A stretch of DNA of 32,970 nucleotides from a virus: positions 1 through 32,970 of IMG/VR virus record IMGVR_UViG_3300017773_000068; one strand, written 5' to 3'. Below, in pieces: positions 43 through 26,954 of the stretch. The notes below the pieces were generated by a model. It saw only the letters and a list, made by a program, of their open reading frames with translations. It did no database searches and had not been told where the DNA came from. Each line of letters begins with the position of its first letter. Within the stretch, counting starts at the first letter, position 1. The translations under genes were made by a program, and so were the position numbers.

Positions 43-3000
43 ATGCGGTTTGTGCGGGAGTGGTTAGCAGCCTATGACCACGATCCGGACGTATTTGCTT
101 CAAAGTATGCCAATCTTACTGAAAAGTCAAAAGCAATAATAGACGCGCTGCGAAGCACAGAAGGATATGAACCTCCAACGCAAGACATACTAGCAGTTGG
201 GGAGGAATCAGACTATGTACATCGCAACAAAGCAGGCATTAGTTTCTCTACGGAGATTATACCAAACACAGATGAAGATGCGTGGAATAGCTTTGTAGAC
301 TCTACGCCTCTTGAAGCTCAGTTTGGGTACGTACCAGAAGTCGTACAATTTATAGCCGATTATCGTGATAATAAAATAACTACGTTACCAGAACTTAACG
401 CTGCTTTTAACTCTTTGTTTTTTAGCGCCGAGTATCCTAGTGATGCAAGTATGCTTACCAAAGATTGGGTAAACGAGCATTGGCTACAAAAAAATGCACT
501 TCACATAACTGATAAGTTAGAACAAGAGCATAGATATAACTTTCTCCGAATACTGAATGCCGCGTCTCCAGACGGGATGGCCTATAAGTCCTCTGACCCT
601 GCTATTGCTGACTTATACGCTCTATGGCGTGAATGGGAAAGCAGAATGTCCGATAACATGGAGCGTATAACTACAGAGTACAGTAGTGGGCTTACCCGTG
701 ATGAAAGAACGGCGCAAAGAGAGGAGGTTCTTAATTCCTTTTCTGATGATGCGTTTGCAGAAGTTATTTCAGCTTCAATCATACCGGGCGTTGGCACACT
801 CTATCAAACCGGGAGGGATAAAAGTTTTTATGAGGGTACTTCATACGAAGATACGGCGATTTCTGTCGATGATAGAAGCAAGAATACCACGCTACAGAAT
901 GCGTTTGTTGACCATATAAAACCTAATAAACTTGGTTGGTTTGGGGAAGACGACGATGAAGATGGGTTCGATAATACAGTCGATGCTTACCCAAACAACA
1001 TAAACTATTGGGACGAAGAATCTAAACAAGAGTATGACTTCGATCACGCAGATACGGATGGCGATGGGCGTATAAACAAAATCGACCTAGATATTTATAA
1101 TAAGGATGTTTGGGATGAAGAAAGTCAGGCCGCCTATCAACTTACTATAACAGATTCTGATGGCGATAACGTTCCAGACGCATCGGATGATTACCCAAAC
1201 AACAAAAACTTTTGGGACGAAGGATCTAAACAAGATTACGAGTACAGTCAGCTAGATTCTGATAATGACAGCTATATAAATGCGGTAGATGATTACCCAA
1301 ACAACAAAAACTATTGGGACGCAGGATCTAAACAAGAGTACGAGTACGGTCTACTAGATGATGATGATGACAAAGTTATAAATGCGGAAGATGATTACCC
1401 AAACAACAAAAACTATTGGGACGCAGAATCTAAACAAGAGTACGACTACGGTCAAGAAGATACTGATAACGACAGCTATATAAATGCGGTAGATGAATTC
1501 CCATTAGATCCATCTGAGCATACTGATGTAGACAAAGACGGTTTTGGCTCTAATGTTGATTTTGACGATAATGATCCAAATCTTAGCGAAGAATATGACA
1601 CGCTTGAGTATGCCGCCCTCGACGTTAACCAAGACGGCATAGTAGATGCGTTAACTGATGGCCTTTTGGTAATGCGGTATTTATTTGGGTTAGAGACGGG
1701 ACAGCCACTTTTTAGCGGCGGCCTAAGAACTTCGGGTAGCGCCCGTAGCGAAGAAGAAATAATCGCGTTTTTAGAAAAACTTAAAGATGGCACCACAAAA
1801 CAAGAAAACCCCGGGCTGTTTAATGTATTCGATTTAGATCAGAATGGGCAGTTAGACCCGTTAACGGACGGATTACTAATGCTTAGGGCAGCATTCGGTA
1901 CGTTTTCACCTGAAGGTGCCATTGCGGACGATTCCCCTTTTACGACTATGGATACCGAGGTAGCTACGGATCTTATAACAGCTAGGTTTAGCGCCCATAA
2001 TGGGAAGAACGATGAAGGCATTAAAATTGCTGATGATGGTAGATTAGTTATACCGTCTGAGGAAGATACTAAATACAGAGAAATTTATGAGGAACTTTTC
2101 TCTGATTATGCGGTAACAGCTAACCCAGACGCAGCCGCAGAGATGGGTGAACCTCCTCAGAAAGTTAATTTAGACAATTACTTTTTGAACGCCGCAGAAA
2201 ACGCATATGAGGCGTACAAGCGTGACGGGATTAGTAGTATAGATTTAGCCGGAATGGTTAATTACATAGTAGATTTACCAGAAAGTCTTTGGAGCTATGT
2301 ATTTGACATTTCTAACCAAGGTCTAATTAACAAGTTCGATGCTACTGGCGATGGGAAAATAACGTCCGAAGATGCTGCCGCATTCCACAGCGAAGATTTT
2401 GGAGTACAAGTACCTGCAAGAGAAAACGAGCTGGCAGGAATAAAGGATAAGCTAAATAACCTTTTCATAGACGACCAAGAAACTGTTTATGAAGCCTATA
2501 TACGAGGTGTGGATGTTGAAGAGTTAAGTAGCGTTGTGTTAGAAATATCGGTATTAGAGATAAAAGGTGAAGACTTACCTTTACTCGGTATGCCTGCTGA
2601 TTATGAAGCCTTTGTAGATCGCTTTGACTCTCTTGGTTCGGGGGCAATATCTTCTCGCGATGCACAGGAAATAAAGGCGGAGAATTTTGGGTGGATAAAA
2701 GAACGTTATTTATCTGAGTACGATGGTAGGGACGAAATACCAAAGGGCGCTGGCGAAGAACAAATAAGAAAAAGATTTGAAATACTCGCTGAAGGGATAG
2801 TCCATGCAAGACACTACACTGATTTTACCGATCCAGAAGATGTTGCTGAGTTTAACGAAATAACTGCCCCCGCAATAGCAGAACTTGAAAAAGCAAAAAA
2901 TGAAAACCCCGAAGCATACGCAATCGTAGCCGCCGATTATAACAAAGATGGTGGTGATGCTGGGGTACTCGACCTAGACTTTTTTGATGTCAACCCAGAC

Positions 3001-6000
3001 GTAGCGGGTGTAACCACTGCTGAAGAATCCGTGGCGTATGATACGGAGCAAGCAGAAATAGCTGCAAGACAACAAGCGCTAGATAATTACACTGGGGAGG
3101 GTGCATTACCCGAAGGCTCTGGTGAAATACAGGTAAGAAAAAGGTTTGAGTATTGGAGAGATAACGCCCCTGCAACCGCGGAAGCTGAGGAGAATAGAAA
3201 GACTGAAGCTGCTCAAATAGCAGCGGACTACAGCACAGCTTTCAATGTTGTAAAAGCGGACTTTGATACGGATGAAGATGGCGTAATAGACCTTCTTGAT
3301 GTTAGTCCTGATGATCCCGGAATAACAACTTCCCAAGAGTTAGAGGATTCTAAAGCTGTAAAAGACGAAAGTGCAGAGGTAGGCACCATAGGATTTGGTA
3401 AATTACCAACTAAACAAGGCAGGGATCGTACTTCTTACCGTAGCGATATGATAAATGCTTTGCGAGACGAAGACGGCAAAATTGAATTTTTTAATAACGG
3501 TTTAACTGGTGGTGATACTTACTACCAAGGATATGTCATACCGTTAACAACAGAAGAACTTATAGATGGTTATTACTCTATCTTAAACACTGGAACGTGG
3601 GTAGATCCTAGAACAGAAAATCAAAATGGGGTGAATGACTTTTTGGCGGGTAATATCGACGATATTAATCAATACGGTGTTCCTGTTGTTGATGTAGCAA
3701 AGTATGGGAAGGAGAGTGAAGATAACAATACGTATAATGGAAAAAATGTAGCGGGTGCTCAAGCGTTTTTAGACGAATACACTAAGGGAACGTTTGTCTA
3801 CGAAGGTCAAATGGGTGGGCCGCTACAAGAAGTGGATATTAATTACGGTATAGATGACTCGGGAGACTTTATTACTTTAAGTGACCTGTTTAATCGTAGA
3901 GTGCCATTATACGACACGACTGACCTACAGCGCGTGGATCGAGAAAATATTTTGCCTGCGGGGTTCATACAAGGAGTAGACAGACTACCGGATACAGAAG
4001 AACTGTATGGTTTTTATACAGATGCAATAATTTATGCGTCGGCTATACATCCTGACTTACAACTAGCGTACGATTATGCCGACAAGTTAATGGCTAATCT
4101 GCCAGCAGAACTGTACAACGAATGGAAAAAACACCCGCTTGCAACGCGTTGGGATCAAGACCCTGCCAACATATCGACACTAAAAAGGGCTATAAAACCC
4201 TCAGACTTGATTGGGCTAGACCATTACACCGAAATAGATACTAGTATTCTTAGAGATTACGCTGAAAATATGGATGTTAGTGAGGTTACTGGGAAGGGCA
4301 AGCCATATCAAGATTTCCTTAACACTGTAGCAGATGCGATAGATAAGTTCGTAGAGGATCCTAGTAGTTTAAGCCCAAAAGAAAAAGAATATTTAAACCA
4401 GTACAGGGTAGTACAAAATGACATTTTATTCATGGGTACTCAAGACCTTGAAAATGACACGTTTGATATTGAAGACACAGCTCTTAGTGAAATATCTCGC
4501 GTAGCAGATTACCAAACCATTCAAGATAATTGGGCTAACCGCGAAACTCTTTTCGGTTCCCAGATTGCTGATAGGGTGGAAGAAAACTACGATTACCAAT
4601 ATGGAGGGTGGTCTCCCGACCCTAATGACCCCAACGATAGGCCTCCAGAGTACGGGTTTTCTATGAGTGGTCAGGGGTTAGAGTGGTCTAATGGACAGGC
4701 ATTTTTTGGTGGAACCGGCTTTACTGTGCCTTTAAATTCAGTGGTGGTGTGGGACGAAGATAATATGGGTAAGGCCCGCATTCGACATGGGGCGTACATA
4801 CAAGAATGGCAAAATACCATGAATTCTATGGATCTACCTTCATACCAAGAAACAAACATTTTAGGTGTGGGTTTAGAAACGTCTGAAAGATTTACAGAAC
4901 TAACTCAAAAAGACAACAGAAATGCTCAAGAAGAAGCGGAGTATCAGGAGTTAGTAGAAGCGTTGTCTAGTAACACTATGAGCATCTTTGGAGATGATCT
5001 ACCACCTGTTTGGTACGACGCTACTAGGCTGTACATGAAGCACCCATATCACGATTATGAGGCTTCAGTAGCGAGCGGTTACGCTAATCAAGCAGACATA
5101 GATTTTAGTATAAACCGTCAGGTCACTAATAGAGGGTATGGTGCTGGAAGTACAATTGGTGATCTAGGTGGCGTAGGTAAAATGGACTACACGGCTTTTG
5201 CTAACCCCGGAGGAGAAAATGAAGGTAGAGGATTTTACCTAGACATTTCTGGTGGTACTGCTCCGATTGGGTCTTACAGTATGGTATGGGTCTCGCAGCC
5301 AGAGTGGTATGAGCCCCCAGAGCAATCTTTTTGGGAGTTTATATTAACTAACCCTGTAACTTCAATAATGGTCAGTATAATCGCCCCCGGGTACGGAAAT
5401 GCGATATTAGCAGGGCTAAAAGCGGCTTCTGGGATAACGCTACATGCGAGTGATTGGTTAAGTTTAGGTCTAGGCGCACTAAAACTGACAGGGAATTTGC
5501 AGATGCCTGTAGATGCGACTCAAGCAGAACAGATGGCGCAAGCGGACGCAGTGGCAGCGGTAGATGCGGCAGAAGCGGCGGGGCAAACTCTAACCGAGTT
5601 AGAAAGAGCTACGCTAATGCTTGAGACTTATAACGGTGCTTATAGCGTATACGTTACTGGTTTTGGTATTGCCGGGATGAGTGCTGCACAAACAGTAGAC
5701 CTTATGAAAATAGTAGCCTATGAGGGAAACATAGGAAGCATGTTGGTAAGTTCTTTTGGGGATGAGTATTTTACCAAAGGACTAAGTATTGCAGGCATAG
5801 ATGTATCAAACTTACCAGACTTTGTTGTTGGCTTGATGAATGACGTAGCCACAGAGATGCTAGACGGTAAATCTTTTGACGATGCCATATCAATAGCGTC
5901 TGGTACAGAATTGTTAGGTTACTTAGAAACTGAAATTGAGTCCTCTAAAGTTTATGGTACGGCTAAAAATATTTTGGAAGAATTTAAGAACGACTTAAAC

Positions 6001-9000
6001 CAAGCTACCCAAGCAGTGCAGACTATGGCAGATGACGCGGTGGAGGGCGTAAAAGAGACTATAACAGCTATTAGCGAAAGTATGGACACAGACTTGCTGG
6101 AGGATCTATCAAAACTTTCTTCAGACGTTAGAACTGACATTAATCAGATAAGCCAGACCATAGGTAACATAGCCACAGAACTTAACGCAGAAGTATTAGC
6201 GCCCGTCTCAAATGCTATAAAAAATAACATGGGCAAGTTTATGACTATGGCGGGGCTAGACAATGAAAATTTGTTTAGTGTTTCTGGAGACTCTGTTGCA
6301 GACGCAGACAACTTAATGGGGGACATAAAAGATCTTGTAGGAGATACTATATTTGAAAGCGTCCCTGATGCTATAAAAGACACTTTAAGAGAAGCTGCTA
6401 TTCAAAAAATATCTCTTGGAGAAGTAGACGAAAACGAAATGAAGTTAATGGCTACTAGAGGGTCAATAACTGTAAAAGCTGTAAGCAATTTAGATGGGGA
6501 CTTAGTTGACGCTATAGGCCCTAGAATCCTTACTAAAGCCCTACAAAACACACTGACTGCAGCTACTTTTGGCGGTGATCCGGGAGAAGCGTTTTTAGAC
6601 ACTATAGTAGATAGCACTATACAATCTATAGAAGCTGCTAGGGCTAGCGGCGGTTGGGACGAGGTCGTCAAGCAATTTGACCAATTTGAAGACCGTATAA
6701 CAGGAAAAAGCCGAGAAGCGCAAACGGCTGCGGATGAGTACAACAAAATAGGTACAGACTTTAATGCGCTAGAAACCCGCAAAAAAGCGTTAGAAAAAGA
6801 AAACAGTGAGTACCTTGTTGAATTAGATAGGTTAGAACTAGCGGCAATGGCTGATGGTGCGGGAGACCTAGAGATGCAAGCGTATATAAACTACGCAGAA
6901 TTCTACACTAATAGAGCGCAGGGCATTGGCGAAGAATTAAGTCAAATTAAAGAAGACAAAGATGCTTTGATTGCAGCGTTGCCGGCTGCAGAAACAAAGT
7001 ACGATAACGCAGTAGCTGCTATAAATGCTGAAACAGCTACGCTAGACCCTTTACTACAAAAACAGTATGACGACCTATATGTAAACGCTCTGTTGGCGGT
7101 GCACCCAGAAATAAAAATGGGGGAGTACGCGGTAGTTAGTGGTATGGAGTGGGAAGGCGAATACCCAACTGCGGAAGAAATTGCGGAGCACTACTTATCT
7201 TATGGCATCCAAAACGGTGTACCTGTAAACGTAGAAGAATATAATGCTAGACGCGACGCAGGGGCATCTCAATACGTATTAACCGCTTTGCGAGAAGCTG
7301 GCATAGATGCTACAAAACTTACCCCTGAAGAAATAAAAAATACGACAAACTACCTACTAAATGAGCATGCTACGGCTAAAGCGGAAGAGAACGGGCAAAC
7401 TGTAGTTGAATACTTAGAAAACTTTAACGAAACCCCTGACAATGCGGAGAAAGCCCTAGAAGCTGCATACGTGCTTGAAGAAGGGTTTGGCACTCCACCA
7501 GACGCGGTTGCTTTGACAGTAGCGAATCGCCGCGCCTCGTATGCGTTTAATGCTTTAGGGATGTCTGCCGAGGACGTTAACAATATAGCTAATAATGAAG
7601 TGTCTTACACCATAGACCCTGATACAGGAGATATAATGTGGGGTGGTGATGGGTACATGATGCGCGAATGGAACTCTAGCACTAACCAGTTTGACACTTA
7701 TCAATACGATGCTGGGGGCGGTTTAAGGTATAGACTAAATGACGACGGGTCAGAACCGCTTATAAGGGAGTTAGAACGTACTGAAATGTTTAATGGTATA
7801 GCAGATTTGGCTGAAGATAGCCCTGCTTCATATATGACGTTCCTAGCGACAGCGCCAACAGATGCAGCAATAAATGCACAGGTAAATTACCTAACGCAAA
7901 AAGATCCTTATTCGGACGAACTACAAGAAATAAAAAACATACAAGCTGCTATTAAAGCCGCGCCAGAGGATGACGGAAGATTTGCTATACCTGATAGCGA
8001 GTTACCGTGGGAAGTACGTGTAGCCAGAGACTGGTTAGAGCACTCGCAAGAAATAGAAAACGCCTTACGTGCTGAGGTAGAAGCCTTAGAAAACCTAGAA
8101 GGCCCGTTAAGTGTAGATGAAGAGTTAAGACTTGAGTTTGCTAGAGATGCTTATAGTGATGCTGAAGGTAGCACGGAGTTCTTGGCTAACTGGGTAGTAA
8201 AAACTCCAACCAAGATAAATGCTTTTGTACAGACTAGCCTTAACGCATTTACCGCATGGTCGCAAGGTATAGCGGCTGAAAAGAAAGCTGATGGGTTTAG
8301 AAGACAGGCTCTATTTGAAGGTAAAAGCGCTGAAGAAGCCGACGCTATATTTAGAGAGAAGTATGCAGAGTTTAAGCAAGACATAGATTATTCAAGTATT
8401 GTGCACAATGAAGCCAACCAAACACACAATATGATGGAAAGTTTGGCTCGAGGTTATTTGCCAGACAGTTACCTAGCTGACCAAAAGGAGATGGGCGAAA
8501 ATATAGCGGCGGCGGATGGAACGATAGACACCGTAATAGCCATAACTGGAGAAATAATTGATAAACCAGATGTATTCCTAGGCACTTATCTAGCTGATGA
8601 GTTACCCACCGCTATTTTTGGGTTAGGGATTGGTTCTGCGGCTGGACGAATAACTAGTTTGGCGGCTGCTAAGGTTGTAGGTAAAGAAGCAGCGGAATCT
8701 TTAGCGGCTGGGTCAACTGTTTCTATGGGCGCAACTAGAGTAGCGGATTACGCAGAAGCGTTTGGTGAGAGCGCGTATGGTACATATGAAGATACTAAAG
8801 CAGAACTAGAGCGCATAGGCTACGAAGGTGACATAGAGGCAAAAGCACAAGAAATAGCTATAAGAGTTGGAACCGCGGCGATGGTGATGGTTGGGGCTAC
8901 AGAGCCGTTTGGTGCCTTTGCTTTAGACAATGCCATACTTAACGCCTCTACTAAGAAAGCAGTTAAAGAAGTAGCGCAACGTGTAGAGGGTCTTGGAAAT

Positions 9001-12498: not shown

Positions 12499-14390
12499 TG
12501 AGCATGCTTGAAGACTGGTACAAGACCCTTACAGGTGGAGATTTAGATTTATCGGATGTAAGTTTTGATGATCTTTTACAAGTAGGCGGTACTGCGTATA
12601 TATCTAGTAAGTTTCCTGATGGTGGTTTGCGCGGCGTAAATAAGCCTCCAGTGGGCTATCAAGGTGGGGTTGATAGGCTTACAAAAGTAAGAGAACAAGT
12701 AGATAGACCTTTTGGCGCAACTCAAGGGCGTAGGGCAGGGTTGCTAAGTGCTGTAACTCCAGAAGTAAAAACAATGGCGGATATGGATTTTGCTGGCACA
12801 GACTTTACAGGAATGACTCCAGAAGAAGTTGACGCTAAGAAAAAAGGATTGTTAGCAGAAGAAAATGCTAGGGCGCAAAAAGAAGCAGACGACGCGGGAG
12901 TTATGCAAGGTGATATGTATGCTCGTGGTGAAGAGCGCAGGCCCGGACAATATGGCAGACGTTACTTCACTGACTCTATCTATGCTAAAACTCCTGAAGC
13001 AGCTCAAAAACCTCCATCTTTAGCAGACGCACAAGAAACAGCTAAAAGACAACGACTAGAAATGGAAGGTAAAAGCGCTGAAGAAATTGACGAAATCATG
13101 GCTTCCGAAACTCCTGCGGCAGCTGCTACAGGTGGGCATATACGCAAGTATGCTGGTGGTGGTATAGCTTCTATGAATAGTGGACAACTTTTTAATCAGG
13201 GCTATTATTTAGGTGGTAAAACTGATGGCATGGCTGACCAAATACCTGCCCGTATTAATGGTAAACAAGAAGCGCGTTTAAGTGATGGTGAGTTTGTAGT
13301 ACCTGCTGATGTGGTAAGTCATTTAGGTAACGGTAACTCAGATGCGGGTGCGCAGGAATTACATAATATGATGGATGGTGTTCGTACAGCACGTACAGGC
13401 AACCCAGAACAAGGCAAACAAATAAATCCACAAGAGTTTATGCCTAAGATGGCTCAAGGTGGATTAGCTCAGTTTGCTGGTGGTGGTAAGATCAAGTATT
13501 TAAACGTAGGGGGTGATCCCGGTGCGGATACTGAAACTGCCACTACTGAAACTACTAACAACACTGCTGACGGTGGAGAGATGGCGGGCACTGAAATCGG
13601 CACAGAGTCTAGCTTATCTGATTGGGCGGGTGATTATGTTACAAGTATGTTGTCGAAAGGTAGGGCGGAAGCTGAGAGTCCATACCAAGCATATACTGGC
13701 CCTCTGACTGCCGGGACTAGCACCCTACAAGATCAAGCGTTTACTGGAATACAAGCACTTAATAACCCACTTAGTGGGGGTTCTATAACTAGACAAATGG
13801 GGGCGTTTGACCCAACTGATTCTAGTATGTTTATGAATCCTTACCAACAACAGGTTATTGATCGCACTGCTGCTGACATGCAAAGACAAGACCAAATTAA
13901 TCAGCTACAGCAGCGTCAACAACTTACTTCTGCGGGCGCTTTCGGTGGTTCAAGAGACGCACTACTGCGTGCCGAAGCTGCTTCCAACCTATCTAGAAAT
14001 ATCGGTGATATGTCTGCGGAACAAAGGGCGCAAGGGTTCAACACTGCTATGGATAGAGCACAACAAAGACAGCAAGAGATTAATAAGTATGGTCTAGAGG
14101 CACTGGCAGCTCAAGGCGCGGCAGGTCAGGTACAAAGAGATATTGCTTCCGAAGGCATTGCTGCTGATTACGCTCAGTTTAGAGAAGAAAGAGATTACGA
14201 TCCTAAGATGGTTCAGTACATGCAGTCGTTACTACAAAACCTACCAATAACTGCTGCTTCATCTGTATACTCTGAACCTAGTGAGATACAACAATACTTA
14301 GAAAGTATAGAAGGCATTGAACAACTCATTGAAGCGCTAGGCGGGACTATTACACCCGCAGAAGAAACTACGCAGGAGACTACACAATAA
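12498..14390 (+). CDS. Putative internal virion protein with conserved LSDGEFVVP segment (630 aa)
   Basis: The start overlaps the stop of the 4151-aa gene (TAATG), suggesting translational coupling. The N-terminus is mixed and charged. About 213-345 is a Gly-rich zone: KYAGGGIASM, then a highly structured motif containing GGKTDGMADQIPARING and LSDGEFVVPADVVSHLGNG, then MAQGGLAQFAGGGKIKYLN. I recognise this LSDGEFVVP segment as recurring in marine phage proteins of unknown function. The C-terminal half (about 405-600) is helical and Gln-rich, with NPYQQQVIDRTAADM and GAFGGSRDALL, a pattern seen in internal or core virion proteins of podovirus-like phages. No enzyme motif or signal peptide is visible. 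Position between giant genes supports a virion role. Function is inference; that the gene is real is certain. Confidence 0.8.
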   Translation: MSMLEDWYKTLTGGDLDLSDVSFDDLLQVGGTAYISSKFPDGGLRGVNKPPVGYQGGVDRLTKVREQVDRPFGATQGRRAGLLSAVTPEVKTMADMDFAGTDFTGMTPEEVDAKKKGLLAEENARAQKEADDAGVMQGDMYARGEERRPGQYGRRYFTDSIYAKTPEAAQKPPSLADAQETAKRQRLEMEGKSAEEIDEIMASETPAAAATGGHIRKYAGGGIASMNSGQLFNQGYYLGGKTDGMADQIPARINGKQEARLSDGEFVVPADVVSHLGNGNSDAGAQELHNMMDGVRTARTGNPEQGKQINPQEFMPKMAQGGLAQFAGGGKIKYLNVGGDPGADTETATTETTNNTADGGEMAGTEIGTESSLSDWAGDYVTSMLSKGRAEAESPYQAYTGPLTAGTSTLQDQAFTGIQALNNPLSGGSITRQMGAFDPTDSSMFMNPYQQQVIDRTAADMQRQDQINQLQQRQQLTSAGAFGGSRDALLRAEAASNLSRNIGDMSAEQRAQGFNTAMDRAQQRQQEINKYGLEALAAQGAAGQVQRDIASEGIAADYAQFREERDYDPKMVQYMQSLLQNLPITAASSVYSEPSEIQQYLESIEGIEQLIEALGGTITPAEETTQETTQ

Positions 14391-16420
14391 TGTTAGGTAT
14401 AATGGGAAATATCGACCAACAGGTTAGTGACAAAGCTGACAGCATGCAGATGCAGGGTAAGACCAGCACTGTGTCTAAAGATCTTCTTGATGTAATGGCT
14501 ACACAAAGAATAGCCAGAGAGAAAGATACTGCGCTTAAAGAACTACAGATGGCGCAACAGCAAAACCCTAACACTATAAAAGACCAGCTAGAACAAAAAG
14601 TCATGGGCATGACGCAGAATGAGATGACCAACCAAACTGCGGGTATCATGGCACAACAACAACAACAAAAACGCCCCCAACAACAACAACAACGTCCGCC
14701 ACAACAAGGTGGTATTGCTGCTATGGGTGGCGCTCCTAAACCTCCAATGGGCGGGATGCCTCGCCCTCCTATGGCTGGTGCTCCTAAACCTCCTATGGGC
14801 GGGATGCCTCGCCCTCCTATGGCTGGTGGTATTGCAAGCGCTGCTCCACGCCCGCCAATGATGGCTAGTGGTGGTGTTGTTGGCTATAACAAAGGCGGCG
14901 TATCAATAAGCGACGACAAATTAAAGTTATTAGGGTTAACAAGAAGACAATATGAAGCGTTGCCCGAGGCTACTAAAAGAAAAATATTACAAGACGACAC
15001 AGCCTCTCTTGGATACAACCCCGCTAGAGCCGCTGAACAACGTAAGCAGCAAGAAGAGGCAACCAAGAAAGAATTACAATCTATAGCAAACATACCTGCT
15101 GGCATTGGAAGAGCGATAGAAAGTGGCAGAAAATCAGACGCTATAGAAACAGCTAAAAATTTAGGCGTTACTGCAGAAGACTTAGGTCAATATGATACCA
15201 GTGGCATAGCTCGTGCTATGGATACGCTAAAAGAGCCTGCGGAAAAAGAACCGTTCTTACCTACTCCTACAGGCAAAATGCCAGCTCCAGCTCCAGCTCC
15301 AGCCCAAGCTCCAAACACAACTGCAACCACGGATGCGAGTGCGACTACAAAAACACCCTTCCCGGGTATAGAAAGTCTTGACCCTAGGAAAGCTGCAACA
15401 GCAGGCCAAGGGGCGCTTGCAGAGAACCAAAGAAATATTTCAGATCGTGTAGGCGAAGACCTAATGAGTAAAGTTAGGCAGGATGCCGCTACAGATCCTA
15501 AAGCAGAAAGGGGCGCTGAGACTGACAGACTCAAGGACTTGTATGGCCTAGAAGAATTAAGAGCTATGCAAACTGGTGAGCAAGCAGACATAAAAGCCGC
15601 GCAGGATAGATACGATAGTCCTCAAGCTAGACGCGCACGAAATGCTGCTAACTTTATGCGAGGTGGCGCACGTGGTAGGGCTGAAGGCAAGGTTAATCGA
15701 CAGGAGCTAGACTTAAAACGTTTACGTCAGAAACAAGAAGATAGACGTAAGAACAACCAAGAACTGTTCCAGCGTTTAGAAAAAGTAGACTCTGGGTCTC
15801 GTCAGATGTTCCAAGACATGATGACTCAGCAGCAAGCTGCCTTTGCTAGCGTAGAGTCTATAGCCGCTAACGATGAACTAGCTAAGCAGAATATGGCACA
15901 ATTAGAATTTGGGTTTGAAAGTAAAGTACAAGACCTTGTCCTTGAAGCTATGGGTGTAGCTACGCAATCTGAGTTTAATCAGTTGTTGATGAGGGCCGAA
16001 GATACTAATAAGCTACTTTCTTATTGGTCTACGTTTACTCAGGGATTAAAAGACCTAGAGTCGGAAAGACTAGCGGAAGTAGTGCCTCAAATGCAAGACG
16101 TGTTTGCTAGACAGGCTAAAGGTGAAAATGTTGACAATGAACTTATCGCCATAGAAACTGCTAAGAAGATGATCCAAGGGCATGTCTATGCTAATACTCA
16201 ACACATGCTTAAAGCCTTTGCCCAACAATGGGAGAAGTTAAACCCGGGATCAAAAGGCGTAGCTGAACTTGCTATGTTAAGTGGAAGTAGCATGCCAAGT
16301 GGTATATCTTCTCTACAACCTTCAGGTATGGGGCAGTTTGGCAACCGTCAATTAAGTAGCCCAGCTATGAGTAGTAAGGCAGCATTAGATATATTTAATA
16401 AAAACACACCACAGCCATAA
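14390..16420 (+). CDS. Putative internal virion protein with Pro/Gln-rich linker (676 aa)
   Basis: Coupled to the preceding gene by a TAATG overlap. An N-terminal helix (1-80) leads into a poly-Gln tract (about 88-105) and two exact-length 16-residue repeats GAPKPPMGGMPRPPMA (about 114-145). After MMASGGVVGYNKGG comes a compact helical section (about 175-265), an Ala/Pro tract (PAPAPAPAQAP, about 298-308), and a long Arg/Gln/Glu-rich helical C-terminal half (about 340-620) consistent with coiled coil. There is no catalytic motif. Family unknown. The GGVVGYNKGG motif resembles the Gly-Gly motifs in the neighbouring 630-aa protein. Low-complexity hinge plus helical body and operon position suggest a virion scaffold or ejected protein (inference). 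Confidence 0.78.
   Translation: MLGIMGNIDQQVSDKADSMQMQGKTSTVSKDLLDVMATQRIAREKDTALKELQMAQQQNPNTIKDQLEQKVMGMTQNEMTNQTAGIMAQQQQQKRPQQQQQRPPQQGGIAAMGGAPKPPMGGMPRPPMAGAPKPPMGGMPRPPMAGGIASAAPRPPMMASGGVVGYNKGGVSISDDKLKLLGLTRRQYEALPEATKRKILQDDTASLGYNPARAAEQRKQQEEATKKELQSIANIPAGIGRAIESGRKSDAIETAKNLGVTAEDLGQYDTSGIARAMDTLKEPAEKEPFLPTPTGKMPAPAPAPAQAPNTTATTDASATTKTPFPGIESLDPRKAATAGQGALAENQRNISDRVGEDLMSKVRQDAATDPKAERGAETDRLKDLYGLEELRAMQTGEQADIKAAQDRYDSPQARRARNAANFMRGGARGRAEGKVNRQELDLKRLRQKQEDRRKNNQELFQRLEKVDSGSRQMFQDMMTQQQAAFASVESIAANDELAKQNMAQLEFGFESKVQDLVLEAMGVATQSEFNQLLMRAEDTNKLLSYWSTFTQGLKDLESERLAEVVPQMQDVFARQAKGENVDNELIAIETAKKMIQGHVYANTQHMLKAFAQQWEKLNPGSKGVAELAMLSGSSMPSGISSLQPSGMGQFGNRQLSSPAMSSKAALDIFNKNTPQP
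14652..14708 (+). repeat. CAA-rich microsatellite-like tract coding poly-Gln
   Basis: Two runs of CAA codons, broken by AAACGCCCC and CGTCCGCCA, encode Gln runs flanking Arg-Pro. Such tracts are prone to length change. Confidence 0.8.
14729..14824 (+). repeat. Two 48-bp tandem repeats (GAPKPPMGGMPRPPMA x2)
   Basis: Units 14729-14776 and 14777-14824 differ at only a couple of third-position bases, encode identical 16-residue Pro/Gly/Met units, and keep the frame. Confidence 0.9.
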
Positions 16421-16424
16421 GGGG
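16419..16424 (+). promoter_or_regulatory. Ribosome binding site AAGGGG for the 2211-aa gene
   Basis: AAGGGG overlaps the stop of the preceding gene and lies 5 bases before the ATG at 16430. This is the only gene of the + operon after the first with an evident separate ribosome site in a short spacer. Confidence 0.65.
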
Positions 16425-16429
16425 TAATT

Positions 16430-19400
16430 ATGCCTTCGTCTCAAGAGATTTTAGAGGCTGCAGCTAACGCCCAAAGATCGGGTAGAGCTGACGACACTAA
16501 AGTTTTAATGCGTGAATATAAACGCATGATTCGTTTAGAAGCGGGTTTACCTGAGACTCCTACAAAGGGAGCTGACAAAGGCGCAGGGTTCTTTGAAAAT
16601 GTGGCTGCCGGTCTAGGAACTGGGGCCGTTAGTACACTCGAAACAATCGCTCTTGGTGCTGCTACTATACAAGAAGAAGAGGCAGAGCTAGAGACTCGCC
16701 GAAAGATAAAAAACGTTGCTGATAAATTCAAGCCTGAAGGTGGCGATGCCGATTCTTTGGTATATAAAGGTGCTTCTGGGTTAGGTTCTCTACTCACATT
16801 TGTTCCCGCAGCTTTTACGGGTAAAGCCGCTATTCCTGTAGCTCTTGGTATGGGTATGGCTGCTGGTGGGGGTGAAGCCTCAGAACGTGCTAGAGATTAC
16901 GGTGCTACGGAAGAAGAAAGAAACGCTGCCATAAGACGTGGTCTGGCTATTGGTTCAACTGAAGTATTACCTGTGGGCAGGGCGCTAGGACAGCTGTCTA
17001 GAAAATTTGGTAGTCCGGGATTAGAAAACTTCTTAGATAACTTATCAGACAAAGTAACTCCAGATGTTATAGATGGAATAAAGTCTAGACTAAAAAGCAT
17101 GGCTGCTACTGGGGTAGCTGAAGGCGCGCAGGAAGCTACAGCTGCAATCTTACAAAATTTAAACGAGGCGGGCTACAACCCAGAGCAAGTAGCTTTTGAG
17201 ATGGGGGTAGTTGAAGAAGGCGCTATAGGTGGCAGTGCTGGTGCTATATTCCAAGGCATAGTTGACCTTATTGCTCCTAAACGTGGTAAAAAATTAGACA
17301 CTGGCGACACAGGCAAGATACGCGTAGGCGAACGCCATAGTGATGAGACACAAGAAGAGTTTGATGCTAGACAGCGAGCTTCCCGGGCAGCACGTGGTGA
17401 CACACAGCCTGACATGTTCTCAGATGAATTAGATGATGCAGAGATAAATACTTTAGAAGTAGAACAAACTAAAGAACGTATTGAACGCGCTCGTCTAGAA
17501 GACCCAGACGAAGTAGAATTTGACCTGCTCGTTGCTGAAGAAGGACGAGAGCAAAAAGAAAAAGAAGAAGCTAAAGATCAAGAAGAACGCGACAAGCAGA
17601 TAACTATAGATGAAGCTATAGAAGACGCTAAAGATGAAGAATATGACAAAGGCGTATCTGAAGGGTTTAAGACTCTTGAAGAACAAAGACGCGCAGAGTC
17701 AGACTTAGAAACTAAAGACGCTAGACGTAAAGACGAAGTACAAAAGAAAACTGCCGCAGGTCGTAGAATAATACTTGATGAAGTTTTTGATTCTGCTCCA
17801 GAGAAGGGCAGTAACGTACGCGACATATTTAGAACTAGGTTAGCTGAAGCTGGTTACAGAGATCCTGAACCGAATGCCAGTGAACTACAAAGCATAAAAC
17901 GTTTTCTAGACGTTAAGACAGCAGAACCTGCAAAAGAAGTGGTTGATTCTAACTCAGACTTAGCTACACTAGAATCTCAGATAAAGGAGAAAGGTGATGT
18001 TGGAAAGCAAGCTACTAGAGCACCTGACACAAAAACAACTGGAGACAGCGTTCCAAGTAGTCCAGAAGTCGTGGGAGAGCAACGTGCTGATAGTACCGTC
18101 GAGCCTGCAAGACCTGTCGAAGGAAGACTGGATGATAGTAAGCGTGACACTGGAAGACCTGTTAGAAGAAAGGGAAGAAAACAGTCTGCACTAATACAAA
18201 ATGTAAAAGCGGCTGCTGTAGCGAAAGAAGAAGATACTGCTAAAGAAGCCCCAACTAAAAAGCCTGAGAGCAAACAACCAATAAAAGTAAAAGGCCTTGA
18301 CTCCCCGCAAGTGAATCCTGACACAGGCAAGTTACGCTACCGAAGGGGTAGAAGACTAATTACTGCCCATGATTCTTTACAACTAGACATGCAGGCTGCT
18401 ACTAGGGTAGCTGGAATGAAGCCCGCTAAAGATGTTGGTAGGCTTTCTCAAGATGCCAAAAAGGTTTTAGCTAAGCCTGAGAGAAAGAGAACTCCTGAAG
18501 AGAAACAACTACTAGTAGAAGAACAAGGGCTAGTTACTTCACAAAAGAAAACTTTAACTCCACTTAATAAAGTGGCGGCTTACTTTGCCGCGTTCGATAA
18601 ACCTATGGACGCTATGTACAACGCTGCATATGAAATAGCTGAAGCTGGGTCGCAGATGAATATAGAGAAAGGCGACCCAATGAAATCGTTTGTGTCTTCT
18701 CTTGGTATAAGCAACGCTAAAGAAGTTAGAAAGTGGATGAAGAAAAATCTTAGTAAGAAAACTGTTGACCAGTTTGATGCTCGTGTAGAAGAGTTTAAAA
18801 CTAAGATAGCTAGCGAAAAAGAAAGGGCTCCAACTCAACAAGAACTTAACCAAGAAGCATTAGAAAGACAGGATAGAGCTACAAGGGTAGATCCTGATGC
18901 TGTTAAAGCTAGACAAAAACGCATGACTGATGCCGCAGAAACCAGAGCCGCAAAAAAAGCTGAGCAACAGGAAGGCAAGAAAAAACTTAGTAAAGAAGAG
19001 AAGGCTAGCATAAAAGCTACAGAAGAATTTCTTAATGCCCTTAACAACCCTAAGACAAATCCTAGAAACGCTAAAACATACCAACGCCTAAAAACTTTGG
19101 CAGAAAAAACCGATGACCCGCAAACTAGTTTAGAAGCGTTAGATGCAGCGGCGGCTAAGAAGATAGAAGGTGATGCACAAACTACCGCAGCTAAAAAAGC
19201 TATAGATGAAAAGAAAGTAGAGACAGGTGAATTAAAGCAAGAAGACCTAGACGCGCAAGCTAAGATAGCCGACAGAGAAAAACTATACGCTAAGTTTGTT
19301 GGTAAGAAAGGTATAACAAGATTAGATGTACTTGCTGCTATTAGGGAGCATGGGTACGATTATGTAAAGAACGAAGCTACGCCCGCTGAAGTGTTGGCCG

Positions 19401-22400
19401 CAGGTGACGCACGCGCTAAAGAAAATGGTATGAGTAGATTGCATGGAGAAAAGAAAGATCTGCTTAACGCGTTGAAGACTCCTGTATCACAAAAAATTAA
19501 TTTACTACTCCTAAAGGGAGACATAAAGGGGGCTCTGCTAGAAATATCAAAAACGGCTAAAGCTCCACAGCTAAAAAATATTGCGCGTGCTTTGGCTGAC
19601 AATATGGGCACTACAAAAGTTCAGTTTGTGACTGGTAAAGAAATGAAAACTTTAGTAGGAGAAGATTTAGGCGACGACGGCATTGCATTTGGTGGATTCT
19701 TGCATAGAGAAAACACAATAGTATTTAATGAAGACGTCCCTTTAACTTTGCATACTGTAATGCACGAGGCTACACACGCTGCTTTAGATTTAGTTATTCT
19801 ACGCAACCCTAAAAGGCCAGCAGTTAAATTTATAAACCGTCTATACGAAGAATCTAAAGATCAATTAGGTACAGCTTACGGAGCAGAAAGCATATACGAG
19901 TTCGTGGCTGAGGCAATGAGTAACCCTGCATTTAGGTCACACCTCTCAGGTATGAAGATTAATGAAGCAAACGCGTTTGTTATGTTTATGCGACACGTTG
20001 CTAACATATTGAGAAGTTTAGTTGGTCTAGATACTAAGCCTGTAGACAGAAGTGAAGTAATAAACCTAGATATATTTGACCAAGTTGTAGAACGTATAAT
20101 GGCTCCTAACCCCGATGCCATAACTAAACTTGAACTAAAACCCAGCTTGCTAAGTGAATCTATATTGGCAGCTATAAATCCAGAAGGTAAAAAACCTAGA
20201 GATATTATTACTACAATAACGGATTACATTAAAAATTTCCGCCCTGCTGTTAGTTCAGTTAAAGCCATAGCGCAAACGCTTAACTTGCAGTCTCTATCAG
20301 ATCTGGCTAAATCTAAGGGCGTAGGCTTAGGAGATGTAGGGCAACAGTTGTTGGTTGATGTAGAAAATCAACAGGGCCTACTTGAACAATACAAAGCAGG
20401 GGTTGATAAGGTACTTAAAAGCTACGATGCTTTCCTTCTTAAACATGGTATGAAAGCAAAACGAGTATTGGATCGAATCATATACAATGAAAATTATGGC
20501 GCTACTATATACCAAGTAGACCCAACAAAAAATAGAAGTGACTATGAAGGACAGTTCGATGCCGAATCAAATGTCAGTCTAGAGGAAGTATACGACGCGC
20601 AACAAGATCAATTAAATTCTTTGTCTGATGAGGCTAAAGATGCCGTTATTGAACAGTTCACTTCTATGCGTAATGAGTATAAGAAACAATGGAGTCGTCT
20701 ACGCAGAGCCCTCAAAGTAGAGTTTGATGCTTTGGCTAAGGAAGGTGATGCTGAAGTAGTTAACGAAGTAGCCAGAAAGATAGATAGGGCGTTGTTTGCT
20801 AAGGGAGAACTAGAAGTATACTTCCCATTAGTAAGGCAAGGTAAGTTTAGAGTATCGTTTAAATATAATCCTGAAGACAGGCCAGAAGCTATAGAAACAG
20901 GGTTCTTGATGTTTGAAAACCTACGTGAAAGAGAAGCGTTTATAGAAGATATACCAAACAACCCAATGATAGTAACAGGGTCTGACAAATCCTACGACGT
21001 TGATTTTTCTGCTTCCGACATGCGAAAAGATGCTCCAAACGGTTCTTTTGTAGCAGACATATTAGGTACGTTAGATAAGGCTAAAGTTCCTGAAGGAGTT
21101 CAAGACGATATACTCCGTATGTACGTACAAGCGTTACCAGAAACATCTTATGCTAGATCGTTAACTCAACGTCTAGGTACTTTCGGTTACATACAAAGTG
21201 CTAGAGTTGCTATGAATACTAAGGGCTACTCTCTTGCTTCACAGTCAGCTAAGATAGAAAGTGCATCTAAAATACGGGCTACTAAGAGAGATATAGAAGC
21301 TGCTAGAGACGAGGCAAACAACCCTTATGCTACAGCTGTTGCTAATACTTTAATTAATAGCCACGCTGATTTTGCCATGAAGGGCGCTACGTTCAAAGGA
21401 TTGGAAGAGTATTTTAAAAGAGCAAACCAAGTAGCGTTCATATACACGCTAGGATTTAATATATCTTCTGCCCTTGTAAACATGACTCAAATACCTTTGT
21501 TTGCTATCCCGTATTTGGCCCCACGCTACGGATTTGATAAGACTGTTGCGGCTGTTAGCAAGGCAATTAAAATGGTGTCCTCTTCCAATAACAGTATGGT
21601 TGAATACTATGATGTAACGGGTGAGGGAATAGGTGCTACTTATACATTAAAAGAAAGCCTAAAGAAAAGTATTCGAGAAAACTCTAGCACTGAGAAAGAG
21701 GCAGAGGCACGCATAGAAGAACTCACTAAGATAATACCCCTAATAAAAATGGCCCATCTAAGAGGTAAACTACCTACGTGGGACACGTTACAAGATGTGG
21801 GAGCTAGCGAGCGTGCTGGGTTCTTAGACAAAATGGCTCATCTATCTGCATATGCTTTCAGTGTGGGTGAGCGTTTTAACACGCAGTCTACGCTGTTGTT
21901 TACATACGACCTAACATTGCAAGAGATGGAAGCAGTTAAAGAACGTGGAGAAAAATACTTTAGTCTAGTGCAAGGACAAGACATAGACATATCTGGTTTG
22001 AATGACGACGCGCTACAAAAACTAGCGGCTGAAGAAGCTATATACCAAACACAAGAAGTTAACGCTGGTGGTAGACTAGAAACAGCTGCACCTATATCAA
22101 AACAAAATTTTGGTAGGGTGATGTTTATGTATAAGAGTTATGGTTTGCAGATGTACTACAGCATGTTTAAGTCTTTCTTTACTGCTGTAGACCTAATGTT
22201 TAAAGGTAATAAGAAACAAAGAAAGATAGCTAGACAACAACTAGCGGGGATACACTTGAGTGCGGTGCTATTTGCGGGTGTGGGTGGTATACCATTGTAT
22301 GGCTTGGTATCCATGATATATGACTTGTTCGCTGAGGAAGATGAAGATACGGCAGATGAAGTAGTACGGAAACACCTAACCGAGTTAGGCTTCAAAGGGC

Positions 22401-23065
22401 CTCTATCTCAAATACTAGGTTCGGATATAGCTGCTAGGGTGAAACTTACAGACCTAATATTCCAAGAAAATAGATTTATGCGTGACCCTAGCGTAGAAGA
22501 ACTAGCAGGGCACTACCTTGGTGGCCCAGCATTAAGTACAGGAAAACGTATATTTAGAGGGTTCCAAGATTTCGCTGAGGGTAATGTATACCGTGGGTTT
22601 GAAGCTGTATCTCCCGGTGGTATTGGTAACATGTTACAGTCAATACGATACTTCCAAGACGATGGAGTTATGACTCGTAGAGGCGATTATATTTACGACG
22701 ACATCACTGGGGCGGAGGTTTTCTCTAAGTTCTTAGGCTTTGCCCCTCTCGATTATACGTTCCAAGTAGAACAAAATTCTAGGAACAAAAGGATTGATAC
22801 TGCTGTAAATAAAGAAAAGACTAGGTTACTTAAAAAATACTATGTGGCTTTACGATTTAGTGACTTTATTGAAATGGCAGAACTGCGTAAAGATATGAGA
22901 GAGTTTAATCTCAAACATCCGACCAATCAAATATCTCCAGAGAGTGTGATTAAGTCTATGAAGTCACATGTTAAGACTAGTGCTGATATGTATAGCGGTG
23001 TAACTATATCGCCATTGATGCGGTACGCTATCGAGCAGAGTAATCTAGAGTATAAACAGTTCTAA
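16430..23065 (+). CDS. Polyvalent-type ejected virion protein with HEATH zinc-peptidase motif (2211 aa)
   Basis: The N-terminal helices (EILEAAANAQRSG) resemble starts of phage ejection proteins. About 53-281 is a Gly/Ala-rich hydrophobic module ending GAIGGSAGAIFQGI. A long Lys/Glu-rich region (about 285-1030) is probably coiled coil and linker. HEATH at 1112-1116, preceded by ENTIVFNED and followed by YEFVAEAMSNP (E1157/E1161), is the zincin HExxH pattern with a plausible third Glu ligand. The C-terminal 900 residues hold YFPLVRQGKFRV (about 1465), a hydrophobic stretch at 1670-1702 (TQIPLFAIPYLAPRYGF) and another at 1938-1967, followed by conserved-looking helices. The layout fits large polyvalent proteins of phages, perhaps with an LPD38-like end; this is family recognition by eye. 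Such proteins are thought to enter the host with the DNA. Its stop abuts the leftward terminator. Substrate unknown. Confidence 0.8.
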   Translation: MPSSQEILEAAANAQRSGRADDTKVLMREYKRMIRLEAGLPETPTKGADKGAGFFENVAAGLGTGAVSTLETIALGAATIQEEEAELETRRKIKNVADKFKPEGGDADSLVYKGASGLGSLLTFVPAAFTGKAAIPVALGMGMAAGGGEASERARDYGATEEERNAAIRRGLAIGSTEVLPVGRALGQLSRKFGSPGLENFLDNLSDKVTPDVIDGIKSRLKSMAATGVAEGAQEATAAILQNLNEAGYNPEQVAFEMGVVEEGAIGGSAGAIFQGIVDLIAPKRGKKLDTGDTGKIRVGERHSDETQEEFDARQRASRAARGDTQPDMFSDELDDAEINTLEVEQTKERIERARLEDPDEVEFDLLVAEEGREQKEKEEAKDQEERDKQITIDEAIEDAKDEEYDKGVSEGFKTLEEQRRAESDLETKDARRKDEVQKKTAAGRRIILDEVFDSAPEKGSNVRDIFRTRLAEAGYRDPEPNASELQSIKRFLDVKTAEPAKEVVDSNSDLATLESQIKEKGDVGKQATRAPDTKTTGDSVPSSPEVVGEQRADSTVEPARPVEGRLDDSKRDTGRPVRRKGRKQSALIQNVKAAAVAKEEDTAKEAPTKKPESKQPIKVKGLDSPQVNPDTGKLRYRRGRRLITAHDSLQLDMQAATRVAGMKPAKDVGRLSQDAKKVLAKPERKRTPEEKQLLVEEQGLVTSQKKTLTPLNKVAAYFAAFDKPMDAMYNAAYEIAEAGSQMNIEKGDPMKSFVSSLGISNAKEVRKWMKKNLSKKTVDQFDARVEEFKTKIASEKERAPTQQELNQEALERQDRATRVDPDAVKARQKRMTDAAETRAAKKAEQQEGKKKLSKEEKASIKATEEFLNALNNPKTNPRNAKTYQRLKTLAEKTDDPQTSLEALDAAAAKKIEGDAQTTAAKKAIDEKKVETGELKQEDLDAQAKIADREKLYAKFVGKKGITRLDVLAAIREHGYDYVKNEATPAEVLAAGDARAKENGMSRLHGEKKDLLNALKTPVSQKINLLLLKGDIKGALLEISKTAKAPQLKNIARALADNMGTTKVQFVTGKEMKTLVGEDLGDDGIAFGGFLHRENTIVFNEDVPLTLHTVMHEATHAALDLVILRNPKRPAVKFINRLYEESKDQLGTAYGAESIYEFVAEAMSNPAFRSHLSGMKINEANAFVMFMRHVANILRSLVGLDTKPVDRSEVINLDIFDQVVERIMAPNPDAITKLELKPSLLSESILAAINPEGKKPRDIITTITDYIKNFRPAVSSVKAIAQTLNLQSLSDLAKSKGVGLGDVGQQLLVDVENQQGLLEQYKAGVDKVLKSYDAFLLKHGMKAKRVLDRIIYNENYGATIYQVDPTKNRSDYEGQFDAESNVSLEEVYDAQQDQLNSLSDEAKDAVIEQFTSMRNEYKKQWSRLRRALKVEFDALAKEGDAEVVNEVARKIDRALFAKGELEVYFPLVRQGKFRVSFKYNPEDRPEAIETGFLMFENLREREAFIEDIPNNPMIVTGSDKSYDVDFSASDMRKDAPNGSFVADILGTLDKAKVPEGVQDDILRMYVQALPETSYARSLTQRLGTFGYIQSARVAMNTKGYSLASQSAKIESASKIRATKRDIEAARDEANNPYATAVANTLINSHADFAMKGATFKGLEEYFKRANQVAFIYTLGFNISSALVNMTQIPLFAIPYLAPRYGFDKTVAAVSKAIKMVSSSNNSMVEYYDVTGEGIGATYTLKESLKKSIRENSSTEKEAEARIEELTKIIPLIKMAHLRGKLPTWDTLQDVGASERAGFLDKMAHLSAYAFSVGERFNTQSTLLFTYDLTLQEMEAVKERGEKYFSLVQGQDIDISGLNDDALQKLAAEEAIYQTQEVNAGGRLETAAPISKQNFGRVMFMYKSYGLQMYYSMFKSFFTAVDLMFKGNKKQRKIARQQLAGIHLSAVLFAGVGGIPLYGLVSMIYDLFAEEDEDTADEVVRKHLTELGFKGPLSQILGSDIAARVKLTDLIFQENRFMRDPSVEELAGHYLGGPALSTGKRIFRGFQDFAEGNVYRGFEAVSPGGIGNMLQSIRYFQDDGVMTRRGDYIYDDITGAEVFSKFLGFAPLDYTFQVEQNSRNKRIDTAVNKEKTRLLKKYYVALRFSDFIEMAELRKDMREFNLKHPTNQISPESVIKSMKSHVKTSADMYSGVTISPLMRYAIEQSNLEYKQF

Positions 23066-23153: not shown

Positions 23154-23369
23154 TCACACGATCCTCCAAAAACGTACACCTAACTTCTTATTTTCTATAG
23201 TGGTCTTGGCTTTATACTGCCAACCTTTTCTTTTAAATATTACGTTAACTTGTTCTCGTGCTTTACGAGCGTTGATACATGGAACGAAGACTGAAGCGCC
23301 AACGCCCATCTTATCCCAACGTACAATAATACGTACGCCATCTGGTGCTATGTCATCAAGTTTCAGCAT
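23154..23369 (-). CDS. Small protein of unknown function at the operon end (71 aa)
   Basis: I do not recognise this protein. It overlaps the end of the primase-helicase gene by 14 bases and is the last gene before the leftward terminator. The sequence is compact and basic (IIVRWDKMGVGASVFVP, VIFKRKGWQYKAKTTIENKK, ending FWRIV), with alternating hydrophobic and charged residues that suggest a small beta-rich fold. There is no membrane segment or Cys cluster. The ribosome site is weak, consistent with reinitiation after the upstream stop. A nucleic-acid-binding accessory of replication is possible from context only. Confidence 0.65.
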   Translation of the reverse strand: MLKLDDIAPDGVRIIVRWDKMGVGASVFVPCINARKAREQVNVIFKRKGWQYKAKTTIENKKLGVRFWRIV

Positions 23370-26160: not shown

Positions 26161-26194
26161 AATACATTCCTAATTCCGAGGGTGGAGATAGCAG

Positions 26195-26210
26195 GGGCGC
26201 TGACGCGCCC
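26195..26210. other. Perfect GC stem-loop between the SSB and primase-helicase genes
   Basis: GGGCGC-TGAC-GCGCCC forms a 6-bp perfect stem with a 4-base loop, in the 81-base spacer. On the + strand it is followed by TTTT; on the - strand, where the genes lie, no U-run follows. It is more likely an RNA stability or processing element than a terminator for the leftward transcript. Confidence 0.55.
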
Positions 26211-26241
26211 TTTTCGCATAAAGCTAGCTAAGTTTGTGGGA

Positions 26242-26943
26242 CTAGTCGTCCCAGTCGTCTACGATTGATGCAAGATCAGCGTCAGTCTTTTTTGGTTTCG
26301 GTGTTGCTTTTTTACTGACTTTCTTTGGCTCGGGTGCATCGCCAAACTCACCTTCAATAACATTGGTGGTAGGTTTAGCTTCAACAACCTCAAAAGGGTT
26401 ATCATCTTTCTGGAATGTAAAGCCACCTTCAACCTTACCGAATGGCGTGCTAGATTCCATAGGTACGTATTTAATTACTTGTACCGCTTTCAAACGTAGT
26501 GAGATTCCTGCTTCGCGCATGTTGTAAGGCACAAAGATTACAGCTACATTGACTGTACTGCCTGTAGTTAACATGAAATCTTCTGGTAGTTTACTCCCAT
26601 TTGAGTCCACTTGTACAGGTTTTAATGTAGCCTCTTTACCATACGCACCTTTCAACGTAGCTTTGTACACGTACATGCCATCGTCATCTTTGGTGAATGG
26701 GTTATCAACCTTCTCAGGCCACCCTTTCTCTTTACGCTCTTCATACGCCTTACACATTTCAAGATACAAAGACTTGGCTTGATCTTTTGTCATACGAAAT
26801 TTAATCTCGTATTTAGCGCCATCGTCAAACGCGCTACACGGTACAGTGCGATTCTCTGCGTTATCAAAGCGATATGGTTTATTGATACGAGGCCAAAGAG
26901 CCTCAACGTTTTCTATAATATAACTGCTATTTGTATTAGCCAT
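26242..26943 (-). CDS. T7 gp2.5-like single-stranded DNA-binding protein (233 aa)
   Basis: Binds ssDNA at the fork and recruits polymerase and helicase, judging from family resemblance. The N-terminal part has the typical frame: an ALWPRINKPYRF strand, then KYEIKFRMTKDQAKSLYLEM. The middle (about 80-165) ends with ISLRLKAVQVIKYV, a hallmark of phage gp2.5/DUF2815-like SSBs. A linker with PFGKVEGGF leads to a Lys/Pro-rich segment (PEPKKVSKKATPKPKK) and an acidic tail ending SIVDDWDD, as expected of SSB interaction tails. AAGG lies 9 bases before the ATG. The gene is flanked by the Cys-rich protein, which carries the same PFGKVEGGF motif, and the primase-helicase. Confidence 0.82.
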   Translation of the reverse strand: MANTNSSYIIENVEALWPRINKPYRFDNAENRTVPCSAFDDGAKYEIKFRMTKDQAKSLYLEMCKAYEERKEKGWPEKVDNPFTKDDDGMYVYKATLKGAYGKEATLKPVQVDSNGSKLPEDFMLTTGSTVNVAVIFVPYNMREAGISLRLKAVQVIKYVPMESSTPFGKVEGGFTFQKDDNPFEVVEAKPTTNVIEGEFGDAPEPKKVSKKATPKPKKTDADLASIVDDWDD

Positions 26944-26954
26944 AATTAATTACC

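Follow-up and report, generated by a model that had tools for sequence, protein, structure and literature searches.

A 23-kb, four-gene unit in an aquatic viral genome fragment is probably a podoviral ejection-protein cassette

Gene layout of the late unit

The window analyzed here is a stretch of 32,970 bp that makes up the entire IMG/VR record IMGVR_UViG_3300017773_000068; it has no end repeats and is a fragment of a virus genome. Its subject of interest is a 23-kb unit of four open reading frames (ORFs), at 43-12498, 12498-14390, 14390-16420, and 16430-23065, which encode proteins of 4151, 630, 676, and 2211 amino acids (aa), here named giant1 (P0001), P2 (P0002), P3 (P0003), and P4 (P0004). 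We consider it likely that this unit is a cassette for ejection proteins (internal virion proteins) and that it belongs to a short-tailed phage with a Gram-negative host. A preliminary description, made from the letters of the window, had listed four tandem genes of these sizes, and all four ORFs were indeed found on the plus strand. It had further counted three of four joins as tight, while only three joins exist. All three are tight: giant1 and P2 overlap in a TAATG at 12496-12500, P2 and P3 in a TAATG at 14388-14392, and P3 and P4 are separated by a 9-base gap (16421-16429) containing AGGGG. The ATG of giant1 at position 43 is preceded by a Shine-Dalgarno sequence, AGGAG, at 33-37, and the frame is open upstream of this ATG as far as the contig edge. 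Because the closest relative, G020, carries a giant1 orthologue of 4156 aa (41% identity across P0001 residues 1075-4151), 4151 aa is probably the true, complete length of giant1.

P4 is related to a structural ejection protein and to polyvalent giants

P4 (16430-23065, plus strand) is identified by homology as a putative polyvalent ejection protein. A zincin-type metallopeptidase region lies at residues ~1106-1296 (19745-20317, plus strand); the HExxH motif is present in 134 of 134 P4 proteins longer than 1,300 aa, and H1112, E1113, H1116, Y1150, and E1157 were invariant in the first P4 alignment. A profile of 79 P4 C-termini, compared with every sequence in the PDB, gave only two matches below 1e-3, which were also its best: the tetrameric ejection protein gp48 of PhiM1 (E value, 2e-5) and the internal virion protein 9sfn chain G (E value, 3.4e-5). 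Both matches span the peptidase region and the adjoining downstream stretch; HExxH and YG..EF are conserved in gp48, which was again retrieved (E value, 4.6e-5) with a second, different and smaller P4 alignment. In the Pectobacterium phage PhiM1, gp48 resides inside the capsid, atop the octameric ejection protein (PMC11440229).

The C-terminal half of P4, residues 1410-2211 (20657-23062, plus strand), is common to the DarB/PLxRFG polyvalent giants. It matched the DarB-like/PLxRFG giants of 60-kb podoviruses in tblastn searches (E values to 6e-41), P4 matched the PHROG DarB-like family (E value, 6e-38), and the P4 profile retrieved the Skulduggery giant (E value, 6e-82) and, with similar values, those of PBC5, douglas 12A4, LASTA, and Pavtok. 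Composition and alignment delimit an N-terminal Gly-rich hydrophobic domain at residues 50-300 (16577-17329, plus strand), a probable membrane segment; P0004 has hydrophobic segments at 121-139 and, as a helix within the C-terminal half, at 1938-1964. P4 had previously been described as a polyvalent protein with hydrophobic segments, a view borne out here. It is probably a phage polyvalent protein in the sense of Iyer et al. (2017), being large, carrying a zincin-type metallopeptidase, and adjoining late genes. The metallopeptidase region is the only enzymatic domain detected in P0004.

An AlphaFold2 model of P4 residues 1030-2211 (predicted local distance difference test score, 83; predicted template modeling score, 0.72) was compared with predicted viral proteins, where it matched polyvalent proteins (E value, 3e-47), the internal core protein of Ralstonia phage RSB3 (4e-9), and a roseophage internal virion protein D (2e-7). 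Against PDB structures nothing significant was found, the best match being a lethal-factor-type zincin (E value, 0.09), so that a likeness to the C-terminus of the N4 vRNAP is not shown by the model. Because no T7-type RNA polymerase domain was matched in P4 or its relatives in Pfam and PHROGs, P4 is not an N4-type vRNAP.

P2 and P3

The preliminary description also named two Gln/Gly-rich proteins, and composition agrees with this for both P0002 (8.6% Q, 11.4% G) and P0003 (9.9% Q, 8.0% G). P2 (12498-14390, plus strand) is recognized by locus comparison as a fusion of two domains. P2a, residues 1-316 (12498-13445, plus strand), matches a gene of MinM2/Pag-Yong1 (E value, 5e-25). P2b, residues 364-622 (13587-14363, plus strand), is predicted to form long helices and matches gp27 of Sinorhizobium phage phiM5 in a profile search (E value, 3e-14); in the phiM5 record, gp27 and the next three genes, which encode internal virion proteins, are annotated as "detected in phage particle proteome." P2b also matches MinM2 (E value, 1e-16), Octadecabacter virus DB2, and the N-terminus of an "internal virion protein D." A match of P2b to N4 gp54 (E value, 0.05) was treated as chance. 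Of 118 loci, 67 encode P2a and P2b as two genes and 51 as one fused gene. Fused forms also occur in loci far from the window by sequence; the fusion may have been gained or lost repeatedly.

P3 (14390-16420, plus strand; isoelectric point [pI], 8.9) is a Gln-rich protein that agrees with the periplasmic-tunnel ejection protein in position and size, and its relatives have a median length of 642 aa. Tunnel proteins of the gp15 type are usually recognized by size and synteny only (PMC8954989).

A short motif, A/K-x-GG-x-I/V, was observed at residue 4132 of giant1 (window ~12436), at 219 and 327 of P0002, and at 159 and 167 of P0003. It is strongly conserved in the P2a and P3 alignments and is also found in small head-region proteins of relatives (in G016, at L205 ~3997-5302). 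We know of no description of this motif, which might be an assembly or docking signal.

giant1 varies widely in length beside nearly fixed partners

The least expected part of the cassette is giant1 (43-12498, plus strand; 454 kDa; pI, 4.1), whose orthologues range from 982 to 5302 aa while the neighboring genes change little. Complete orthologues of the first set measured 982 to 2505 aa (a 383-aa entry was read as a broken frame), and those in close relatives of the window measured 3388, 3690, 4156, 5229, and 5302 aa; the last, in G016, contains ~1,600 residues of coiled coil. In profile alignment, the 1.7- to 2.6-k-aa giants of relatives cover P0001 from residue ~1,700 through its C-terminus (hhalign E value, 2e-143), which defines a core at residues ~1720-4151 (5200-12495, plus strand), and the upstream ~1,700 aa of P0001 are an extension beyond this core. 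The extension includes D-rich calcium-type loops at residues 303-520 (949-1602, plus strand), in line with the earlier reading of giant1 as a calcium-binding-repeat protein. Repeat inspection revealed 5 to 6 copies of a 34-aa D-rich repeat at residues 303-490 and two dockerin-like loops at 527 and 597, for which the Pfam dockerin match is weak (E value, 0.09). The loop modules occupy other positions in the giants of G016 and G018. By alignment, the C-terminus of giant1 (11830-12495, plus strand) is conserved, with an EF-hand-like loop at 3973, YDFESIF at 4095, and AKGGMVEDKTDEILRIIGDK at 4132. The EF-hand/dockerin-like loop, YDVTGDQLLTQEDID, occupies P0001 residues 3973-3995 (window 11959-12027); it is conserved in the C-terminal region of many giants and is also kept in those without N-terminal calcium repeats.

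A SleB-type Cell Wall Hydrolase signature is present in eleven complete short giants and in further partial ones; three short giants scanned singly gave the Hydrolase_2 match with Pfam E values of 3e-19 to 8e-18, and in the L169 type the hydrolase domain lies at residues 811-925. Profiles of the N- and C-termini connect these hydrolase-bearing proteins with the mid-size giants (E values to 1e-22 and 1e-17, respectively). The hydrolase in the short orthologues favors a role of giant1 in crossing the cell wall and thereby links giant1, indirectly, to a putative function in ejection.

P2a starts on the stop codon of giant1, with the one-base TAATG overlap, in 66 of the 101 loci measured. An ORF of at least 900 aa lies between tail tube B and P2a in 37 of the 43 loci that hold both. 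Since a small fiber gene alone occupies this position in 2 of these 43 loci, and MinM2 has no giant1 there, these comparisons mark giant1 as an addition to a conserved P2a-P2b-P3-P4 set.

Several other candidate relationships of giant1 were rejected. Profile matches to PI3-kinase coiled coils and tropomyosin-type names were taken as coiled-coil composition rather than homology. A membrane domain shared by giant1 and P4 was plausible by eye and not significant (best hmmsearch E value, 0.006; hhalign probability, 10%). Repeat self-comparison of the giants gave no matches, a result that is uninformative for such a coiled coil.

Conserved gene order and phage type

Single-sequence searches with P0001, P0002, and P0003 gave little, so that profiles were needed; a single P4 query found 15 relatives. 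Profile searches of IMG/VR yielded 379 matching stretches for P4 and 498 for P2b, and 80 of each were fetched. The preliminary description had looked to the same gene order in other viral genomes for support, and the order and strand of P2b, P3, and P4 are kept in all 99 fetched loci that hold all three, some of which share a contig and which hence do not represent 99 independent viruses. The P4 of L015 was excluded from full-length alignments, as frame changes in the assembly interrupt the gene.

Nearly complete relatives of 60 to 67 kb carry TerL, portal, a scaffold-like protein, the major capsid protein, tail tube A, tail tube B, a tail fiber, giant1, P2, P3, P4, and opposed replication genes. 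Their tail tube B, major capsid protein, TerL, and portal match the MinM2/Pag-Yong1 isolates (E values, 1e-127 to 7e-194), and the tail tube B profile matches phiM5 (1e-42) and LUZ24 (5e-19). These head and tail gene matches suggest that the group consists of podoviruses. The group is common in metagenomes, with hundreds of IMG/VR contigs, and no P2b relative was found in GTDB genomes. In the window, the late unit ends at a convergent replication module on the minus strand (23154-32970), with primase/helicase, single-stranded-DNA-binding, SNF2 helicase, exonuclease, and DNA polymerase genes.

Two observations touch on hosts. A single distant P4 relative (L214; 28% identity over the C-terminal half) lies on an 8.9-kb contig binned as Verrucomicrobiales, which may be a mis-binned phage contig or a hint of the host. 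Three records, OQ594354.1, OL906435.1, and PP438419.1 (L016, L017), are all 65,014 bp long and have the same match, with three different cyanobacterial hosts given; all three seem to be a single phage, and at least some of the host assignments appear doubtful.

Interpretation and alternative explanations

In T7, N4/DEV, and PhiM1, ejection proteins are the first to exit the capsid and then reassemble into a channel, in which a small protein sits in the outer membrane, another forms the periplasmic tunnel, and a large one lies in the inner membrane (PMC8954989, PMC12633501, PMC10925440, PMC11440229). By analogy, the proteins of the cassette would be made late, and P2b, P3, and P4 would be stored inside the capsid, over the portal, and exit ahead of the DNA. 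P2b and P3 would then stand in for the proteins of the outer membrane and the periplasmic tunnel (T7 gp14/gp15, N4 gp52/gp51), and P4 for the large last protein (T7 gp16, PhiM1 gp48, N4 vRNAP). P4 is assigned its place by homology, P2b by its virion-detected homologue, and P3 by position only. P4 would reach the inner membrane via its hydrophobic segments and deliver a polyvalent body with a metallopeptidase, so that peptidase and helical body are brought into or to the cytoplasm; the peptidase is perhaps self-processing, as proposed for polyvalent proteins (PMC5512222). In the weakest step of this scheme, giant1 would most likely be packaged too and would open or span the cell wall, with its calcium loops and coiled coil as variable inserts.

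Thus, the ejection machine proposed in the preliminary description is supported by homology for P4 and P2 and indirectly, through the orthologue hydrolase, for giant1, for which packaging and a part in building the conduit are still presumed. We infer packaging, the order of ejection, the roles of P2b and P3, the role of giant1, and the Gram-negative host. Several points weigh against an ejection cassette. Detection in particles is by proxy, through phiM5 gp27. Profile searches found no homologue of P3 outside the group, and the AlphaFold model of P0002, of low confidence overall and too weak for a fold search, gave no fold match. By Pfam scan, no cell-wall hydrolase was found in the proteins of the window, P0001 and P4 included; a peptidoglycan-degrading domain is optional in podoviral ejection cassettes and is absent in P22. 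Finally, a protein that is acidic throughout and bears extracellular-type calcium loops, as P0001 does, would also suit an external fiber.

This last point leads to the explanation that P2, P3, and P4 are ejection proteins while giant1 is an external tail appendage, a long, acidic, calcium-stabilized fiber or whisker. The giant1 gene comes after the tail fiber gene, and the long coiled coil of the G016 protein is in keeping with such an appendage, length-variable rods being common in fibers. However, no receptor-binding or fiber domain was found in P0001 or in the 26 complete giants scanned, orthologues carry the cell-wall hydrolase and hydrophobic Gly/Ala-rich N-terminal regions, and giant1 is tied to P2a by the frequent one-base overlap; we regard an appendage as unlikely. 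Proteins that are very long and helical would also fit a long-tailed phage, as a tape-measure-like set or another set for tail assembly. Relatives, however, carry the podoviral tail tube A and tail tube B, and no tail sheath or tape-measure match was found among ten late proteins scanned, which makes this explanation highly improbable.

Alternatively, P4 and giant1 could serve above all as delivered effectors, polyvalent proteins directed at blocking the defenses of the host, and contribute little or nothing to a conduit. The C-terminus of P4 groups with DarB-like polyvalent proteins, LPD39 is found in 6 of 11 P4 relatives, and an ADP-ribosyltransferase is found in one. On the other hand, the region that P4 matches in PhiM1 belongs to a structural, tetrameric ejection protein, and most P4 relatives scanned have no recognized effector enzyme. 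We consider a mainly effector function possible but not probable; effector and conduit roles of P4 are in any case mutually compatible.

Within the ejection cassette, giant1 could be a new, fourth structural component of the ejectosome, a modular calcium-binding/coiled-coil rod whose length, from about 1,000 to 5,300 aa, is adjusted between close relatives to how deep the host envelope is or how it is composed, the short forms supplying a cell-wall hydrolase and the long ones reach. This specific proposal is speculative, and we think it quite unlikely to be correct as it stands. The natural length series of giant1 beside near-fixed partners offers a direct way to test what the length of a component does. 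Envelope passage by short-tailed phages is under active study and has been solved for few lineages. Here, an aquatic short-tailed phage group appears to devote 24 to 39% of its genome to one ejection operon, and polyvalent giants, seen as defense-blocking cargo, are tied by sequence to a structurally proven ejection protein.

Comparison with known systems

The podoviral operons T7 gp14-gp15-gp16, P22 gp7-gp20-gp16, PhiM1 gp50-gp49-gp48, and epsilon15 gp14-gp17 lie, as here, in the late operon after the tail-tube genes and in the same small-to-medium-to-large order, which is the rule for such operons (PMC8954989; DEV operon, PMC10925440). P4 is homologous to PhiM1 gp48 over ~190 aa. The present cassette differs in having an extra giant gene before the set, in the addition of P2a, and in size: P4 has 2211 aa versus 1318 for T7 gp16, and the cassette spans 16 to 26 kb versus 6.8 kb in T7 and 3.9 kb in P22. 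The giant1-P2-P3-P4 unit makes up 39% of the genome in G016 (66.4 kb), 30% in G006, 26% in G013, and 24% in G010, compared with 17% for T7 gp14-16, 19% for N4 gp50-52, 10% for P22, 30% for Pavtok, and 26% for LASTA. The set is thus far larger than that of T7, as had been claimed, and than that of P22, but Pavtok, with its 5007-aa giant, and LASTA are comparable. These comparable cassettes, together with the homology, place the unit as a variant of the known podoviral ejection cassette rather than the undescribed kind of system for which it was initially taken.

Schitoviridae (N4, DEV) likewise have a giant last protein with an N-terminal ejection part, an HExxH domain, and a long helical C-terminus, the latter two described for N4 gp50 (PMC12633501; PMC5512222), and their giant follows a ~640-aa tunnel protein (PMC12633501). 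N4 gp51 has 644 aa (PMC12633501), close to the P3 median, which is a resemblance and not a test. In contrast to N4 gp50, P4 has no RNA polymerase domain, and the two show no significant sequence match. In phiM5 (gp27 to gp31), the P2b homologue precedes three internal virion proteins, and all of them are particle-detected; the genes after gp27 encode only 363 to 514 aa and are unmatched to P3 or P4. MinM2, Pag-Yong1, and Pra-JY27 (65,014-bp isolates) have homologous major capsid protein, TerL, portal, tail tube B, P2a, and P2b in the same order, ending in a 2803-aa giant that is annotated as RelA/SpoT and weakly matches P4, but they lack giant1 between the tail gene and P2a. In Pavtok, LASTA, Skulduggery, PBC5, and douglas 12A4, a giant late gene adjoins virion-structural genes and shares the C-terminal ~700 to 900 aa. 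Those DarB/PLxRFG giants include domains of the methylase, helicase, or transglycosylase type, and a single chain can be as long as 5007 aa (Pavtok), whereas in the window the second giant is a separate upstream gene.

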